A stretch of DNA of 64,000 nucleotides from assembly GCF_000003815.2 (NCBI RefSeq), contig NC_049997.1, positions 8,645,158-8,709,157 of the forward strand. The letters are read 5' to 3'. This document shows positions 25,758-57,330 of this stretch, in pieces (within the stretch, counting starts at the first letter, position 1; each line of letters opens with the position of its first letter). Both the position numbers and the translations under genes were made by a program. The stretch comes from Branchiostoma floridae (taxonomy: Eukaryota; Chordata; Leptocardii; Amphioxiformes; Branchiostomatidae). The notes below the pieces were generated by a model. The model saw only the letters and a program-made list of their open reading frames with translations. It made no database searches and was not told where the DNA came from.

Positions 25758-28700
25758 ATGTCAGCTTTGCGAGTAGTTCTATTCTCGAGACATGCCCTCA
25801 GGTGTTCAATGAGTCTTTCAAGACATTACGCTGGGCTGTCGGCGACGAGTAATCGGTTTTGCAGGGAGAGGACGCAGCCTACGCAACTGTTCGTTCAGCA
25901 AGGTGGGAGGGGGGCGTGGTTCATTATTGTGTTTGCACTTTCTAACAGAATGACCTAAGACGGTAATTATACGTCCTTGGAATGACTCAGCAAAATCGCT
26001 GACGTTTATGGAACTGTAACCGTAAAACACAGAAATAACAGAGTATATGTAGAGCTGTATTTTCAAGTACTTTGGAGGTGGGGTGGGGGGCAAGGTACGT
26101 AAGAGGCGTTGCTTTTTCTTGGCTATTATGAGGAAAACATACATACATGGGGAAAATTGACAGAAAAATTGGTGTGACTGTTCTAACAAAATACAAATGG
26201 GTGAGTTGATAACACAAATCTGCAAACACCCACAGTCCTAATCTCCAAGCAGATAGTACGATGGCATAAGATAGTACTAAACTGGCCATTAGGAGTGTAG
26301 TCAGCTAAGAGGTATGCATTTCCCCAGTAGCAAAACACACTCCTAAGCCAGCATCACTCTTTTACCAGCTTTTGATACAATCTTATGCTACCATACGATC
26401 TGCTTGGAGAGTACCAATGCTTCAGCTCCCTCTGTTCTGCTGTCCTAATTATAAGCATTACACACACACCCCACCCCACCACCCCCAATTTCTGCTGTCG
26501 TATACCCTGGATGCCAGACCCCTAGCCCAATCTCAATAACATATGGGTATAACTCAGTAGGCCCTGGACATGGTCTGGTATCCAGGCTAGCTGTCCTACT
26601 TAAAGGATTGCAAATCTCCCCCAACCCCCTTCAATCGTCTTCCGGGAGGGACGTAAACCGGGGGTCCCGTGCTCGAGGAGGTGCCTCGACCACGTTAAAT
26701 AGCCTCATTACTCACACTTTGGGTACCTACTGGCTGCAAAATACACCCGATATTATTATTAATACTAGAACTAAGAAGTTCAGTCCTATGTCATCAGACA
26801 TCACCCCAAAAAATCAATAGTTCATGTATTTGGAATGAGCCTATAATAGTAAAAATCGAAATCTTTATTGACAGGACAAAAGTGCAGCGACTTTCCTAAG
26901 GTCGTATAACAACTACTTACAACTTATAACTAAACAGACATATATGGATATCTATACTAGTAGGTATGAATAAGTCAACAAATTGGATCTAGCATATCAT
27001 TTACACTATTGGTTCTACGGTATAAGCATTCGTGGATATATTTGCCTATCTACTTGTACACAGTGAGGATTATCGGCTACCAGAATGTAGTTGAACTTAT
27101 CTATCGAATAGAGAGTAGCAAATTCTTTAGAGCAAGCAGAAAGTAATGTGAACAGCTCTGTGCGTTTGTCATTATATCGTGAACAATCCGTAAATGTACA
27201 TGTGTGTCTCACAACAATAGGACTGTTAGGTGGCTGTCACTTTTTATTTACGGCAATGTGGTTGACCTTTTAAGTTTCACACTTCTGAGTTTGGAACATA
27301 GATTGGTCTAAACTTGATCTTTGACCCCCCAGCTCCAGCCAGGCTCTACTCCAAGGATAACGAGACTCCGTGGACAGATGTGAAGTATGACGAACTCAAG
27401 GCCTTGATTAAGTCAGGTAGGTAAGGGAGTTCTACGGAACTGTCACAGTGTGACAACACTGGGAGATTCTGAGAAATATCTGGGGTTCGTCTATTTATAC
27501 TAGGAGACTACTAGTACATTTGTAATACATTCTTAACAGTGCAATGGCTGAGTGGGTAGAGTGTTCGCCTTGCTTTCACTAGTAGGCAGTGAGTTCGATT
27601 CCCGGCAGGTCATACCAAAGACTTTAAAGATGGTAAATGCTGCTTTCTCTGCTTAGCTCTCAGCACTAATGAGGAAGAGTATGGAAGTTAAACACACATC
27701 ACTACCAGCAGACTAACCCCCAAGTCTCATCCCTTTCACTATAGTCTTTTTGTAAGGAATATTATAATTAGTCTAAATGTAGAATGGTTGCTATATTGCC
27801 AAAGATGCCATGTACATTGGACCTTGCACTTTGTATTCCTACTAGGGTATATATGTACAATGAAAGCCATCATTCATTGTTTTTCTACTGTGAGTGACCC
27901 CCAAGGTCATTAATCCTACTTGACCTTGGCTTTAACAGGCCATGTTCAGCTGATTGATGTCCGTGAGCCAGAAGAGATCGCCAGCACTGGTCTCCTTCCC
28001 GGGGCCATCAACATTCCCTGTGAGTATTACTTCCCAGGTCATCCACAACTTGTTGTTGTTTTTGGGTCTGCATTTTGAAAGGGCCCTTTCCTGCTTGTTA
28101 ACCTCTTGGTGTCACCTCCCAGAGGATAGACGGAAATTGACTGAATTGAAGTTGACGGATCTCTCCTGTTTAAGTGCTTGTTTTTAGTATATCCTTATAA
28201 CCATCTTGACCTTTCAGGGTTGGACAAGTTTTCTGAAATTCACTTGTCCTATCGGGCAAGCACATAAAACAATTACTAGTACTTGCCCGAACCAATTTTT
28301 CACTTGCCCAAAACTCAAATGTGACTGTTACTAGTAAAGGCATTTTCACTACCAGCAACAGAATTCTCTGTTGACCATTGCTTGATATCATAACAGTAAA
28401 AAGTACAAGTATATCAAGTAATCAATGGAGAAGTCTTACTTGCCCAATTGGACAAGTCGAGTAGGACATTATTGCACTTGCCGGAACAGCACTTTCACTT
28501 GCCCTTGGCAATCGGACTAGTGGACTTGAACAACCCTAACCTTTTCTTATAATTCGTAGACTTCCTGTCTTGTCGTCATTACTCCCAAACCCATACTTTA
28601 AGAAAAAGTAGCAATTACTGTAACCTCCTGTTTGTACCCAGCTGTGGCTATTCTAATGATATTGTCAGTCATTGACCTTGTTGACATTATCCTTGCCCTG

Positions 28701-31700
28701 TCTTGCCCTTTTTCTCGTTATATGCCAGGCTTAGTTCTAGATGACCAGTATGATTATTTAAAGCAGTGTGTATCCTTCTGTTAATGATGTTTTCTGAGTT
28801 ATTTTCCCATGAAGTTTTTTGTGTGTCCTTGCCCTTTGTTGCCCTTTCTCTCCTTATATAATGATGGATTGTTAACCTTTATCCTACTATATTGGTCATA
28901 ATGTTGGGCTCAACCCATGATTTGAAAACTTTTCACCCTTTTATCAAAGGAAACAAATACTAAAATTATGCAACTTACACAGTCATACATATCCCAGACC
29001 AAACGTTTCCAAGTTGATTGAACATTTTCCTTTAAAATCTTGTATGTATATATATATGTACATGTACTTGTTGGATCTGTCATCCCATTGCTGTACTTTA
29101 AATTAATCTATTTGTTTGTCCTTTGTTTATTTTATTTTCAAATGTCACAGTGGTAATGTTAATATTAGCTCTGCTAGAGTGCATTCACCACCATGTCTTG
29201 TATGATATGTATACCAATAAAAAATAGATAAAATAAATTTAGGGCAGCAGATATTTATATTATATTTAGCATGATGCACTGTGTAACAGTGGGCTTCAAG
29301 CACAGCAAACCGACCATGCCAAATGGCTTTGAGCTAGGTTGATGGTCTAGACTAGTGGTAAGGATTTGGCACTCTCACTGCCAAGGCCTGGGTTCGATTC
29401 CCGGTGTGGGAATCAGTGTAAGAAAGGAGTAGAAACAGACTATGTGGACTGAGATAGAGGATGATGGAGTATATATTTATTAGGGTACAGACATAGAAAT
29501 GTCGTGTCTGTTAACCCTTGTGGACTAAGACTTGGCTATAACTGTAAGGTTTGGGAAAAATATAGAGTATTAGCACTGATCAACACACACATAGAAATCC
29601 CTTCTTAGTTAAGCCTATGTGGACTAAGACTTTGCTAAGAATCAGGTTCAGGGTTCAGTGGAAGGTTCAGGGAAAATACAAATGTAACACTGATTGATAC
29701 ACACACTTAGAAATACCTTGAAGTTCATAGTTAACCCTATGTATACTGTGTGTTCCACATACAGTGGGGAGGCTACACCAGGCTCTTAATTACATGTCGG
29801 ACCAGGCTTTTCAGAACAAGTACAAGAGACCGCAGCCCAAGAAGTGGGACAATAATATCCTCCTGTATGGACAGGACTTTGACAGTGTCCGAGCCAGTGC
29901 AGCTCTGGAACTCTTACATAAGTGGGGGTTTATCAAGTGAGTGAAAGTTAGGCCCCTTTTCTACTACAGTACAACTACTAGACAGCGACTGCTGAGAGAC
30001 CGTATGGTGACTAGATTCAGTTTTGTTTAACTCTTGATTTCAGATTTGTAATATATACAGTAGAAGCCACTTAATTGCACAATGTCAATGGATTGTTATC
30101 GCACACTGTTGTTAGCTGCACTGAATCCCCAAATCACAAACCAGTACGGTCCAGCTGGATAACTTCGCATTTTTGCAACAGCTGGATATAATTGCACGAA
30201 ATACGCTGGTGAATAGGCTATGCAATTAAACGGCTTCTTGTATATATATAAAATGCAGCATGTAAAAATTTGATGCAAAAGATAGCAAAACACAAAAAAT
30301 GCAAAAAGAAAAATTGTTCTTTGTCTCTAATAAGTCTAAAATTTGTAAAATTTTGCTCAATCAGTGATCACTCAGCAGTCAAAGTCTACAGTGGAAAGAG
30401 GGCGGAAAGAAACAAATATTACTTATTAATATCATCCACTCTTTTGAAATGATTTTTCTCTGATGACCCAGTGAACAGGCTACACATTGACTTGAAGATG
30501 CCTGAGGAAGATTTCAAGGAAAAATATGGGGTGGAGAAGCCAGGAAAGGACAATCTCATTCTTCACTGTTTGGGCGGGATTCGCAGTCGCGGGGCCCTCG
30601 CTATCGCCCATGCATTGGGATACGAAAAGTAGGGACCTTTCCACTTATTGCCCCCTTGATAACATGGCATTTTCACCTCACTTTTTACTACTCTGTTTCA
30701 ATCTTGGTGAATGGTAACCTGTATACCATCATTGTTTGGCTTTGGCTTCCATATCAAAAACCAGAACACATGATAGGAAATAAAAGTTCTCCCAACACCA
30801 AAGAAAGTAGCCAAAAGTTCCTTTTGAAATATCTAGAGCCAGACCTAGATTTAAACCAAATTTCATTACAATTGGTCCATAGCTTCTTGAGTGGTGCTAC
30901 TGGACCACAGACATTCATACAAACAATACTAGAAACTTTCTGGTGACTTTCTTGGCTACAAAAGTACAATAATGAAGTGACCAAACGAAGCAAGGGTGGT
31001 ATTCAGTGTCAGGTTTTCTTTTCGTAGACTGCAAGTTCCTTAGATCTTAGACTATTAATCTGTTTCAATTTAATTTCATCTCAGTGCATGTGCATGTTTT
31101 ATTTTTGCACTGACACAATTACTAACCTGTGTTGAGAAAGATTTAAAATATGGACGTTTCTGCATCAAAATGATTCTTAACTTTAGTTTCTTTGCAACTA
31201 CATGTGGTAGCTGTTGGAGAGGTCTCTACTAAATGTTCCTTTGTAGTGGGACCTTGTAGTTTTTACTGTATGTCACAAAGATAATGCATTTGGTGGTGTT
31301 GGGTTTGAGTTGTCAAAGGCATCTTCAAGGCAAGTTGTAGCATGTACACATGGCAATGGCATGTATACTGTTATTCTACGTTGATGTGTTCAATCTTTGG
31401 CCTTCTACGGTATAAATTGTATGCTGTTGTTTCTGCATATGTCTGTTATGTCTGTTATGAGTGACCTGTACCTAGCCCTTCCAGGCATGAATATACAATA
31501 AAGGTCTTTCCTTCATTCATTATAAAGTTGACTAAAAAAACAACAACAGCGAAACTTGTTAGAATTAGAGATTTAGACTTGTTAGAACAATCTGTTTCAA
31601 GGACAGACTGAAAAATGTGGCACCCGGCCACCCTGGGGGTTCCAAAATGCTCTCCACAGAAATTTACACAAGATTTATCTTCACTATGTTTAACAGGGTA

Positions 31701-32664
31701 GTGATGATAAAACGTACTCCCCCTCAAATGCACTCCAAAACTTGCAAAAGATGGGTCCTTAGGGCTCCAATATACTGCTGACAAATAGACACATCTGTCA
31801 TGTTTTCTCCTTTCCGTACCCAGTAGTATTGACCTTGGATGTTCAGGCTGCATAACCTTGAACTACCCACAAATTTGCATCTGTATCTGTAAGGCCCTTT
31901 GGTGCAACACACCAGCTTTCTCCATGTTCAAAACTTTTGCATATAACAATTCTTGCAGTGAAATACTATCTGCAAGTGTTTTTTTAAATCTACCTAATGA
32001 GTGTGCTTTTACACTTGATGGCAATTACTTCCATTGCACGATAGTACTAGGAAAGTGCAAACTTGGGAACATTCGTTTCAATCCTAGGTTGGTAATTCTG
32101 GTACTAGAAGACATAACTTAATTTCTCTGTGCTTTGCTGTGTGGTATTAGTCTCAATTTCTGTGGAAAGTACTTTGGAACCCCAGCATGACAGGGTACTG
32201 CATTTTTCAGACTGACCTTAAAACAGATTATTCTTATTTTTAAGAACTTGGTAAAATGGTATTTCTAATATCATTTGCAATACTGGAATGTAAACTAGAA
32301 TGTAGACTGTAGGTGGACTTACATGTGCCAGAGAGTGAGTTATAGGACCTGTTGTAAGTGCACCTTATTTTGCCATGTCTGAGGGCTGTTGGTGTTATCT
32401 TCATCCAGAATAATTCCTTCACACCAATTTAAAGAGTAAGTAAATCCTCCCTGAGTAAGTCCATTTTCAGACTATTGGACATACTGTGGGTGAAAAGTCG
32501 TTCAAAAGGCCAAGGTTTGCAATAAAGTATAATTGTTTGATGCCAACTTTTTATGCAGCCTTACAGCATTGATGATATTGTTGATGTCTTGTATTTGTTT
32601 TTATCATAGGGCACGGCACTACATCGGTGGGTACGCCGAGTGGGCAGCAAAGCAACAGAGTTAG
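25758..32664 (+). CDS. Mitochondrial-type single-domain rhodanese (TSTD1/TSTD3-like) with two alternative middle exons
   Basis: Exons are 25758-25848, 27333-27416, 27939-28019, then either A (29765-29936) or B (30472-30628), then 32610-32664 (TAG 32662-32664). The B form is 155 aa and the A form 160 aa. Exon 1 (MSALRVVLFSRHALRCSMSL) is Arg/Ser/Leu-rich with no acidic residue, as expected for a mitochondrial presequence. The rhodanese domain follows: KYDELKALIKSGHVQLIDVREPEE, then PGAINIP, then the variable half, and ends with RHYIGGYAEWAAK, the usual GGW/Y-x-x-W ending. The B form has the loop CLGGIR, which fits the C-x-x-G-x-R sulfurtransferase active site. Family members move sulfane sulfur from thiosulfate to glutathione or other thiols. 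All phases match across the splices. The gene is divergent from MS4A-like gene 2. Exact orthology to TSTD1 or TSTD3 is not settled. Confidence 0.85.
26240..26411. mobile_element. MITE family A copy in rhodanese intron 1
   Basis: Starts AATCTCCAAGCAGATAGTAC and ends ATACGATCTGCTTGGAGAGT, with the shared TTTTGATACAATCTTATGC arm. Confidence 0.82.
26503..26590. mobile_element. Short TAGCCTGGATNCCAGAC-type MITE
   Basis: CCCTGGATGCCAGACCCC against CATGGTCTGGTATCCAGGCT, about 85 bp in all. Related end fragments occur near 9808-9896 and 11328-11450 in gene 1 introns. Confidence 0.6.
27537..27725 (+). mobile_element. tRNA-derived SINE (family 1) in rhodanese intron 2
   Basis: A tRNA-like head has an A-box region (TGGCTGAGTGGGTAGAG) and a B box (GAGTTCGATTCCCGG). 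The family 1 body follows: GTCATACCAAAGACTTTAAA, then TGCTGCTTTCTCTGCTTAGC, then AAGAGTATGGAAGTTAAACA. The 3' end is truncated. The body is shared with the copies at 38.5, 46.0, 51.9, 57.9 and 58.9 kb. Confidence 0.8.
28216..28536. mobile_element. MITE-like palindromic element in rhodanese intron 3
   Basis: The element starts AGGGTTGGACAAGT and ends ACTTGAACAACCCT, near-perfect terminal inverted repeats. Inside, ACTTGCCC and its reverse recur several times. There is no ORF. Confidence 0.6.
29341..29412 (+). pseudogene. tRNA-Glu(CTC)-like pseudogene or SINE head in rhodanese intron 3
   Basis: GGTCTAG, TAGTGGTAAGGATTTGGCA, a CTCTCAC anticodon region and GGGTTCGATTCCCGG closely follow tRNA-Glu. 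However, 3 extra bases sit in the D arm, and the 5' side does not pair with the 3' acceptor strand (TGTGGGAATC). It is therefore a degenerate tRNA or a tRNA-derived SINE head, not a working tRNA gene. Confidence 0.6.
29765..29936 (+). other. Rhodanese alternative exon A (catalytic Cys lost)
   Basis: This 172-bp exon has acceptor CACATACAG|TG and donor ATCAA|GTGAGT. It enters in phase 1 (CCC T|TG) and leaves in phase 2 (AA|G). It encodes LGRLHQALNYMSDQAFQNKY, a Lys/Pro-rich linker, ILLYGQDFDSVRASAALELL and HKWGFIK. It lines up with exon B along its whole length. Where B has HCLGGIRSR, A has YGQDFDSVR: the catalytic Cys is Gly and the Arg is missing. The reading frame is intact, so it looks maintained and is probably not a dead duplicate. 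Confidence 0.8.
30058..30240. mobile_element. MITE family B copy 3, between rhodanese exons A and B
   Basis: Terminal inverted repeats CAGTAGAAGCC...TTAATTGCAC are present and TA flanks both ends (30056-30057 and after 30240), as in Tc1/mariner/pogo-type insertions. Related to the copies at 3844 and 6770. Non-coding. Confidence 0.8.
30472..30628 (+). other. Rhodanese alternative exon B (catalytic Cys present)
   Basis: This 157-bp exon has acceptor TTTTTCTCTGATGACCCAG|TG and a weak donor GAAAA|GTAGGG. It has the same entry phase (1) and exit phase (2) as exon A. It encodes LNRLHIDLKMPEEDFKEKYG, then VEKPGKDNLILHCLGGIRSR and GALAIAHALGYEK. C-L-G-G-I-R is the expected sulfurtransferase loop. 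It joins the last exon as K|ARHYIGGYAEW. Confidence 0.85.
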
Positions 32665-41871: not shown

Positions 41872-42293
41872 TCAGCTATGACATCGTTCATGTACGAGGG
41901 CCTCATCAATGGCAGAAGAGGAACGACCAGGTCTGGGAGCTGTTTCCACAGACTTCCGGCCATGTTTGAATTCAGGATGCCAGCGTTTTACAAGGTCATA
42001 TGATGGGGCATCATCACCATAAGTTTCTTTCATTTCATCAAAAGTCTCCTTTGGTGTGCGTCCTTTCAAATACAAAAACCGGATCACTGCGCGACACTCA
42101 AATGGCTCCATTTCACACCTGGTCCATTTCACACCTAACTCAGTTCAAACACCAGTAAATCAGAAACCACAATTAGTTCAGAGCTTTTGTTTGCAACATA
42201 AACTATAGAGATATGAATCATTACACATGCAAAATTTCATTTAGATCAAACAACTGGAAGTGGGTCAGAGTTATTACTTATTGAACGCCCCTC
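41872..42293 (-). pseudogene. mariner-type transposase relic with 5' terminal inverted repeat
   Basis: The minus strand begins TACGAGGGGCGTTCAATAAG at 42293, a mariner-style terminal repeat. About 160 bp later an ORF reads MEPFECRAVIRFLYLKGRTP, then KETFDEMKETYGDDAPSY, DLVKRWHPEFKHGRKSVE and PRPGRSSSAIDE. This is the N-terminal helix-turn-helix (Mos1-type HTH_48) of mariner transposases. It stops soon after, at a TGA (ERCHS*). The catalytic DDD region and the other terminal repeat are missing, so it cannot move itself. Confidence 0.82.
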
Positions 42294-55199: not shown

Positions 55200-57330
55200 A
55201 CTGCATTTAAGGCAATTGCCTTAAGCTTGTGTTGATTACGTTCACTTACTAATAGGTAAAAACAAAAGAGAGATGAAATATGCTTTTTTTGTCTTTGATG
55301 GGTTTGATCAGTTACTGTACTCGGTTGGACACCCAGCTTCCAATATACGAGTATTAACCACAAAAAGGCCAGATGCAAATTATAGTTTTCAGAAAACCAG
55401 ATCAACTTGAAAGAGTTAGAGAGTCTGGTCTTTAAGGATCAATGTTTCATAACCTTTCAAATTTTCCATTGACGTTGGACCGCCTTAGGCACTATCGTTC
55501 GACTTTTCAACTGTATAGAAGCCGGGGGCAAATGAGATGTGTTTTCAGAATTGAATTTATCATTGCAAAGACCCTGTGTCCCCAGGAACCAATGTTTTTC
55601 TTTTTACACTTTCAGATTTCCCGTCTGCAAAATGTCACTAGGCTTTACCAGACTGATCAGATCGTGGCTTATTGCTTAGGGTGGTGCGGTAGAGGCTAAT
55701 ACATGCATGTCTTTCAATGAAGGGCTGTGCGACACACGTGTCGATAGCACAGCGCCCTATTAACATTCATATCGTAGCCAGACTCATCCAGACGCTCTTC
55801 GTACGTGAGGTCTTGCGGCGCATGCAGGCAGGCTCTCCGCACGGTAAGATCATTCTCACAGTCTTTCCTTACTCTATCAATGCGTTGTCTTATACTAGCT
55901 TGTTTCTACCTAACCAGAACAGAACCTACCTATGAAAGCTGGAGTCAATATTTTATAACTCATGGACGGAAAATTATCAATTTCTTGAGGACGGATTCTT
56001 TTATACATGTAGAGTTGCATTATGTTTGATTTGCCTCATTCAAATAGAATCAATAGTACTCACAGTCTCTCCTTCTTCTATTATTATTTCAATGTGTTGT
56101 CTTATGTTAGCATGTTTCTACAGGGCACGTTAGATACTTCGAAATATTTGTGAAAGTTGGAATCAATGCTTTACAAGTCATAGAGGGGAAAATATCAATT
56201 CCTTTAAGGCGACTCCGGTTAAGGTAGTTTTTACACCTGTAGAGTTGCAATATGTTTGACTTTCTTGGTAGATTAGTAATAGAATAGAGTGAATCATAGA
56301 ATCATACATGTGCTATGTAAATCTTGTGATACTATCATGCGACTGATATGAACACATATTTGCAAAGAATGTTACTGTTTCCCTTTAATTTGCTTGAGCT
56401 ATTTTATGTCTCGCCGGTGACGTGACGACTTAACTGCCAACGCTGCTTTTAGCGCAGTAGTGCAAGTCACTCCTACTACACGTACTCTGTAGTTTTCATT
56501 GGAAAGAGGACTGCTCCGGTCACCCATTAGGAAACAACTTATAGCTCATCTACAGTCATATAATGCATACCAAGAGCTTCCTTTGCATGAGGAAAAGGTT
56601 GGGATGTCTGAAGCAAGCTTAGTCAGTCTCCAATTAAATGTTCAGTACACGTACAAGGATTCATACTCAACTTTTCGGTCGCAAACCGCGAGCGGCTTTG
56701 ATACACGTGGTTTCAATGGTGGCTTCTGGTGCATACAGGTGGTTTCAATGGTGGCATCTAATGCATTTGAATCGCTGTTCCCTTCGATACTACATGTATA
56801 CACTTTAACTAGAACTATTGCGTGGGTGTTGATATGCATGCGCGCGTGTTTTCCACTAATGTCGGTTAACTTTATTGAAGAAACTACAGTTAGCTAAACA
56901 TTCTTTAAAATTTGCTTGACGTTGTGTATTTGGGCTAGCGTCTTTTTTATCTTATTTTTTCTATCCACATATGTTTATTGAAAAAAAAAGCAAAATCACG
57001 ATGCTTATAAAATTTTTAAAAGCCCGGCCCTATAATCAGAAACATACATATAAAACTATAACATTGAGTTAAACACTTATTTACTTAGCTAGGTCTTTTG
57101 AATTCATGTTTGTGTGTGTAGCAATCGTCGGAAACGCATTCGGCAGTAATTCAAGACGGAGCTCTAAGGATAATACAACGTTGGGAACTATCAGAGAGAG
57201 TATGTAAGCCAGACAAGCTATCGAGAATTTGCAAGGTTGTTAGGTTGTTGAGGAAGTTTGTTCTGTGCTGAATGAACACAGGTGTATCACGATTGACTTC
57301 AACAAGCCTCTGCCAGACGGACTATGCAGG
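55200..57330. other. No gene or clear element recognised
   Basis: Two diverged copies of one segment are visible (about 55860-56030 and 56060-56250; shared CTATCAATGCGTTGTCTTAT and ATACATGTAGAGTTGCA blocks). ORFs up to 132 aa show no family features. Confidence 0.3.

Follow-up and report, generated by a model that had tools for sequence, protein, structure and literature searches.

Introduction

Tandem homologous exons that are used one at a time, with decay of the double-inclusion products, are well described, as far as the accessible portions of two reports go (PMC5224494, PMC6071210). Long-range base pairing at such exons is likewise known (PMC6071210, PMC10790352, in the parts available). 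In vertebrates, exons 3 and Ab of U2AF1 are homologous exons in tandem. According to the available text of PMC5224494, inclusion of both or of neither results in stops and decay lowers the transcripts, and nearby inverted repeats have been tentatively proposed to loop out one exon. The docker-selector clusters are found in Dscam, 14-3-3zeta, Mhc, MRP1, and ATE1, and in several of these the docker lies in the right-hand intron (PMC6071210, PMC10790352, accessible portions).

On the enzyme side, the closest described gene is that of human TSTD1 (KAT), which has four exons and gives rise to splice isoforms (PMC10135228, available part). The same part of that report defines active rhodanese domains by a cysteine in the active-site loop, with the motif Cx4R/T or Cx5R, and considers the domains lacking the cysteine to be mediators of protein interaction (PMC10135228). 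Among the titles and abstract beginnings searched, we did not find a rhodanese gene or an amphioxus enzyme in which exon choice decides the presence of the catalytic residue. Here we describe a TSTD1-like sulfurtransferase gene of Branchiostoma floridae, in which two tandem homologous exons are probably used as alternatives, one encoding the enzyme and the other encoding a version without the cysteine.

Results

Structure of the gene

The window, which is the whole stretch of 64,000 nucleotides analysed, corresponds to C19:8645158-8709157 in a genome of 513 Mb and 431 contigs. The gene lies on the plus strand and was assembled from the following exons, with either A or B in third place.

27333..27416, plus strand: upstream coding exon (not the first), encoding PARLYSKDNETPWTDVKYDELKALIKSG, from the assembled exons
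27939..28019, plus strand: shared exon, encodes HVQLIDVREPEEIASTGLLPGAINIP with half one of the rhodanese domain, phase 1 at its end, with homologous exons in three paralogues
29765..29936, plus strand: exon A, one of two alternatives for the second half of the domain, Cys replaced by Gly and loop longer by two residues, donor GTGAGT
30472..30628, plus strand: exon B, the other alternative for this half, with C-L-G-G-I-R as its active-site loop; donor sequence GTAGGG
32610..32664, plus strand: last coding exon, encoding ARHYIGGYAEWAAKQQS followed by the stop, from the assembled exons

All splice sites of the assembled exons are GT-AG. Exon A has 172 nt and exon B 157 nt, the difference of 15 nt being a multiple of three. 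The donor of exon A matches the consensus at eight of nine positions, and that of exon B at six of nine. The GC contents of exons A and B are 0.49 and 0.50, compared with 0.36-0.38 for the three surrounding introns. The open frame that holds exon A (29731-29940) is little longer than the exon itself, and searches of the genome with exon A gave a single match at the DNA level and likewise at the protein level. Exon 27333-27416, by reading of the sequence, has a possible second acceptor 6 nt further in, the use of which would leave the phase unchanged. The first coding exon was not located; four candidate ATG codons were considered at or upstream of 23967, none of them convincing. The protein length of 155-160 aa given at first pass depends on this exon and was not confirmed.

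Elsewhere in the window, the minus strand carries a helix-turn-helix of the Mos1-type transposase at 41872-42144 (PF17906, E 1.3e-9), which is probably a mariner remnant. Between 7819 and 21908, also on the minus strand, are several open reading frames whose hydrophobic segments resemble those of membrane proteins; a GLCTGYxGHEV-like string recurs in them. Six of these frames gave no Pfam match at 0.01.

Homology of exons A and B and absence of the catalytic cysteine from exon A

The first-pass annotation regarded the gene product as a sulfurtransferase and exons A and B as homologous, exchanging the catalytic half of the protein. The family assignment is right, as the product is a TSTD1-like single-domain rhodanese. 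Isoform B matches human TSTD1 (PDB 6bev) with an E value of 8e-20, and 6bev is the nearest by sequence of the solved proteins, 21 PDB sequences being found at E of at most 0.01.

The homology of A and B also holds, as judged by a family profile, although direct BLAST was not significant. The profile was made from seven related middle exons, namely exon B, those of the three paralogues in this genome, human TSTD1, yeast RDL2, and YOR285W, with exon A left out. Searched against 1743 open reading frames of at least 25 aa, it recovered exon B at E 2.5e-25 and exon A at E 7.4e-9, and the next best frame had an E value of 1.6. The alignment spans residues 1-57 of the 58 residues of exon A, that is, almost end to end. 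Exon A scored 32.9 bits, and the best of 2000 shuffles scored 6.3 bits, with 1602 matches reported in all for the shuffle search. Direct tblastn of exon A against the window did not recover exon B at E 0.5. The two exons share 33% of residues over 51 codons and 49% of nucleotides, and nucleotide identity is 65% at second codon positions and 33% at third positions, as expected for coding sequence. With Pfam Rhodanese, isoform A scored 61.0 bits and isoform B 67.3 bits; putting eight shuffled versions of exon A into the isoform gave 35.2-47.9 bits, and leaving the exon out gave 34.8 bits. Taken by itself, exon A matched nothing in Pfam at E 1 or in the PDB at E 10. We infer that isoform A folds as a rhodanese domain.

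We then inspected the active-site loop. A glycine of exon A (YGQDFDSVR) occupies the position where exon B (HCLGGIR), TSTD1, and the three paralogues have the catalytic cysteine. The replacement recurs in three alignments, and the loop of exon A is two residues longer. From its sequence, isoform B with its rhodanese domain and Cys-x4-Arg loop is predicted to be a TSTD1-like sulfurtransferase; isoform A has no loop cysteine. Since the loop cysteine is missing, isoform A falls among the inactive rhodanese domains as defined in the available part of PMC10135228, and it is predicted to be catalytically dead. The swap of catalytic halves proposed in the annotation is correct as a description of the two exons but incomplete, because A lacks the catalytic cysteine and the predicted exchange is that of an enzyme for a non-enzyme.

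Frame arithmetic and its origin

Both exons are entered in phase 1 and left in phase 2, each having a length of 1 mod 3. When the exons were assembled and translated with the first exon left out, A alone gave 129 aa and B alone 124 aa, and the two isoforms ended alike in ...KARHYIGGYAEWAAKQQS. With both exons, translation terminates at ...INEQATH*, and this stop lies 138 nt before the junction between B and the last exon. When both are skipped, the last exon is shifted in frame and the stop ends 59 nt beyond the junction, within the last exon. Thus the phases, the retention of the frame on single use, the immediate stop on joint use, and the shift of the last exon on use of neither, all of which had been proposed at first pass, came out of the translations as described. 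Premature stops usually trigger decay if they lie more than 50-55 nt upstream of the last junction. By this rule the product with both exons is a good target for decay, its stop being 138 nt before the last junction, and the doubly skipped product is not exposed to decay because its stop falls in the last exon. In sum, A and B are adjacent, homologous, and compatible in phase, and double inclusion and double skipping each break the protein. Judged by intron length and terminal dinucleotides, steric exclusion by too short an intron or by mixing of U2 and U12 sites is not indicated, as the intron between A and B is 535 nt long and all sites of the assembled exons are GT-AG.

The genome contains three further TSTD1-like genes. 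Two are located about 12 kb apart on C10 (C10:19198461-19211283), the second being referred to as C10b, and one is located on C13 (C13:22189266-22191702). For the C10 pair, only two exons were found, one for each half of the domain; for the C13 gene, there is in addition a weak last exon. Of five Pfam Rhodanese matches listed for the genome, the pair on C6 was examined, as a control. In all three paralogues, the exon corresponding to A and B begins after one codon base and ends after two. As the unequal phases were already present, tandem duplication of such an exon yields copies that exclude each other by frame from birth. The mutual exclusion had been described as enforced by the reading frame; the arithmetic stands, but it is a by-product of duplicating an exon of unequal phases, such as all three paralogues have.

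A tandem copy is also present in C10b. It lies at about C10:19210940-19211050, approximately 175 nt upstream of the intact exon, and has an acceptor AG. About its first two thirds align, followed by a frameshift and a TGA. It is a decayed duplicate exon or, possibly, a poison exon. Within a single genome, two paralogues have thus each acquired a tandem duplicate of the same exon, and the fates of the two duplicates were opposite. The three best trees, which are within 1.4 log units of each other, place exon A with the C13 exon, at the central node, or with exon B.

Constraint on exon A and alternative readings

We infer that mutually exclusive splicing is the best reading of exons A and B. By their sequences the two appear to be old, strongly diverged versions of one exon, both intact. 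Exon A has no stop and no frame-shifting indel despite a DNA identity to exon B of 49%. In a rough simulation of neutral evolution, for which the indel rate was assumed, the frame remained intact in 0.08-0.28% of runs, at branch lengths of 1.16 and 1.35 substitutions per codon, which are the ends of the range of neutral fits on the three best trees. That these fractions are so small depends on the rate assumed for indels, freedom from stops alone having a probability of 0.23-0.28. In nearby sequence taken as non-coding, 496 of 10515 overlapping frames of 57 codons were free of stops. A codon-model branch test did not reject omega = 1 on the branch of A with any of the three trees, the gain being less than one log unit; the control branch of B behaved likewise (change below one log unit), as the sequences are saturated and the test is without power. 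We read exon A as having probably been coding for most of its history.

An unlikely alternative is that exon A is a relic, an old former alternative exon that is no longer spliced in and happens to be briefly open. Tandem copies of the same exon do decay, as the frameshift and stop in C10b demonstrate, and a recent loss of constraint looks the same as continued use within one genome. Against this, the C10b copy shows what an unused duplicate looks like, whereas exon A has an acceptor AG, a better donor match than B, an open frame hardly exceeding its borders, and resemblance to the family along its whole length at high divergence. A less probable reading takes exon A mainly as a poison exon, the joining of A to B lowering the amount of active enzyme through decay. 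The stop of the joined product is well placed for this, and the good donor of A could make the joining frequent; yet a poison exon needs no conserved rhodanese protein sequence, and exon A keeps one. It is highly improbable that A and B are not one splicing unit and that A belongs to a separate overlapping transcript, since, even if the exon-level data are compatible with an alternative promoter or last exon and a poly(A)-like ATTAAA is found at 30225 in the intron between A and B, exon A has to be joined to a phase-1 exon on its upstream side and to a phase-2 partner on its downstream side, and further copies of these partner exons are absent from the window save for one weak match at 56114-56221 (E 0.018).

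Predicted base pairing at exon B

Two intronic strands complementary to the ends of exon B were found in the last intron.

31317..31353, plus strand: candidate for a regulatory helix, complementary to 30468-30503 (the acceptor of exon B with the first 32 nt of the exon)
31216..31260, plus strand: weak candidate, complementary to 30600-30642 at the donor end of exon B, with one genomic match

The first strand, 846 nt downstream of the start of exon B, pairs through 31317-31349 with 30471-30503, i.e. the last acceptor base and the first 32 nt of the exon. The pairing is ungapped with 28 of 33 Watson-Crick pairs, and none of the five mismatches in this core is a G-U pair; the best match in 300 dinucleotide shuffles of the region was 21 of 33. 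The duplex has an energy of -44.0 kcal/mol, which was equalled by none of 100, 250, and 60 shuffles. The helix is present in the minimum free energy structures of 1.2 kb and 2.4 kb of pre-mRNA with a mean pair probability of 0.83-0.84. The strand has one match in the genome, in a search that skips very common words, and was accordingly rejected as a repeated element. The idea that it belongs to an inverted copy of the complete exon B was rejected too, since no similarity was seen in the middle (166 of 300 shuffles were as good or better).

Shuffled sequences proved to be a lenient yardstick, because three of 12 pairing tests on the paralogues beat all 40 shuffles, the strongest being at the acceptor of the C13 exon (-42.1 kcal/mol). 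Seven other tests of sites and regions within the gene were ordinary, with at best 10 of 100 shuffles as good. We then compared exon B with real sequence. Within 2 kb downstream, -43.5 kcal/mol was reached by eight of 874 sampled sites and by three of the 362 sites of similar GC; -40 kcal/mol was reached by eight of these 362, including the two ends of exon B. Inverted clusters of at least 27 of 33 within 1.5 kb number fifteen in the window, that of exon B included, and one in 58 kb elsewhere. The pairing of exon B is therefore unusual, not unique in kind.

The predicted effect of the helix on the splice site is mixed. In the fold of 30300-31500, the acceptor AG has an unpaired probability of 0.12 with the helix and 0.35 with the intronic strand masked; in the fold of 29700-32000, the corresponding values are 0.15 and 0.12, which amounts to no effect. 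For the first 32 nt of exon B, masking the strand gave 0.45 and 0.35, against 0.16 in both folds. Masking worsens the ensemble energy by 21-22 kcal/mol, a value that is an upper bound because the strand is then denied all pairing. It is equally conceivable that the helix is used by editing enzymes or that it reflects an inverted segment present by chance.

The donor-side duplex has an energy of -45.0 kcal/mol in isolation, and none of 100 and 250 shuffles was as good. In three folds of 1.2-2.3 kb containing both strands, its pair probability is 0.0 to one decimal. A two-sided clamp on exon B was rejected, the donor-side duplex being about 6 kcal/mol worse in context. A docker common to A and B was rejected as well: strand 31317-31353 pairs with B at -44.0 kcal/mol and with A only at -20.6 kcal/mol, and 128 of 1547 windows pair with it better than exon A does. 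Pairing at the acceptor of exon A was matched by 18 of 100 and 23 of 100 shuffles. With the tested site moved 10 nt upstream, this acceptor pairs at -36.6 kcal/mol with 29376-29420 upstream. Over four registers, the exon A acceptor was equalled by two of 60 shuffles, which is marginal, and exon B by none of 60. Segment 29376-29420, in the intron before exon A, looks tRNA-like by reading of the sequence.

Two other elements were seen in the last intron. One is a long inverted repeat (31581-31671 and 32150-32234), possibly a foldback element. The other is a pair of neighbouring TGCATG motifs at 31085 and 31091, which we take to be of the Rbfox type; about 1.5 such motifs are expected per 6 kb.

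Discussion

In the mechanism that we propose, exons A and B would be spliced as alternatives. The mRNA with exon B would encode an active, persulfide-forming sulfurtransferase, and that with exon A a folded rhodanese domain incapable of carrying sulfur by the usual chemistry. Isoform A would probably serve as a binding partner or scaffold, or compete with the enzyme. Transcripts with A joined to B would be removed by nonsense-mediated decay. The choice of exon is perhaps tuned by splice-site strength, exon A having the better donor, and, more speculatively, by the RNA helix that would form at long range across the beginning of exon B. That the gene switches between a persulfide enzyme and its dead twin by means of the helix strand, which would hide exon B so that exon A is taken instead, appears doubtful to us.

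If transcripts bear out the alternative use of A and B, the gene would be a clean case in which exon choice sets the presence of an active site in a one-domain enzyme. It is small enough for complete testing by minigene and recombinant protein. Two paralogues carry a tandem duplicate of the same exon, which is intact in one gene and has decayed in its relative, and this provides a natural experiment within one genome.

Compared with U2AF1 as described in the accessible part of PMC5224494, the frame and decay logic of double inclusion is alike. The two U2AF1 versions differ by seven residues, whereas A and B differ at about two thirds of the aligned positions and one of them lacks a catalytic residue. 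With the docker-selector clusters, as far as the available portions of PMC6071210 and PMC10790352 describe them, the gene has tandem duplicated exons and long-range base pairing in common. It differs in that the strong partner found here pairs with exon B itself and a matching site at exon A was not found. If functional, the helix would be an exon-intron pairing, unlike the intron-intron pairing of the classical cases.

Human TSTD1 is, like isoform B, a single-domain rhodanese. Its isoforms, according to the accessible part of PMC10135228, arise by loss of exon 2 and use of intron 3, whereas the amphioxus gene has two homologous exons. Inactive rhodanese domains share with isoform A an active-site loop without cysteine, and the inactive rhodanese listed in that part of the report is a domain of a larger protein (PMC10135228); here, the predicted inactive domain would come from a one-domain gene by the choice of an exon.
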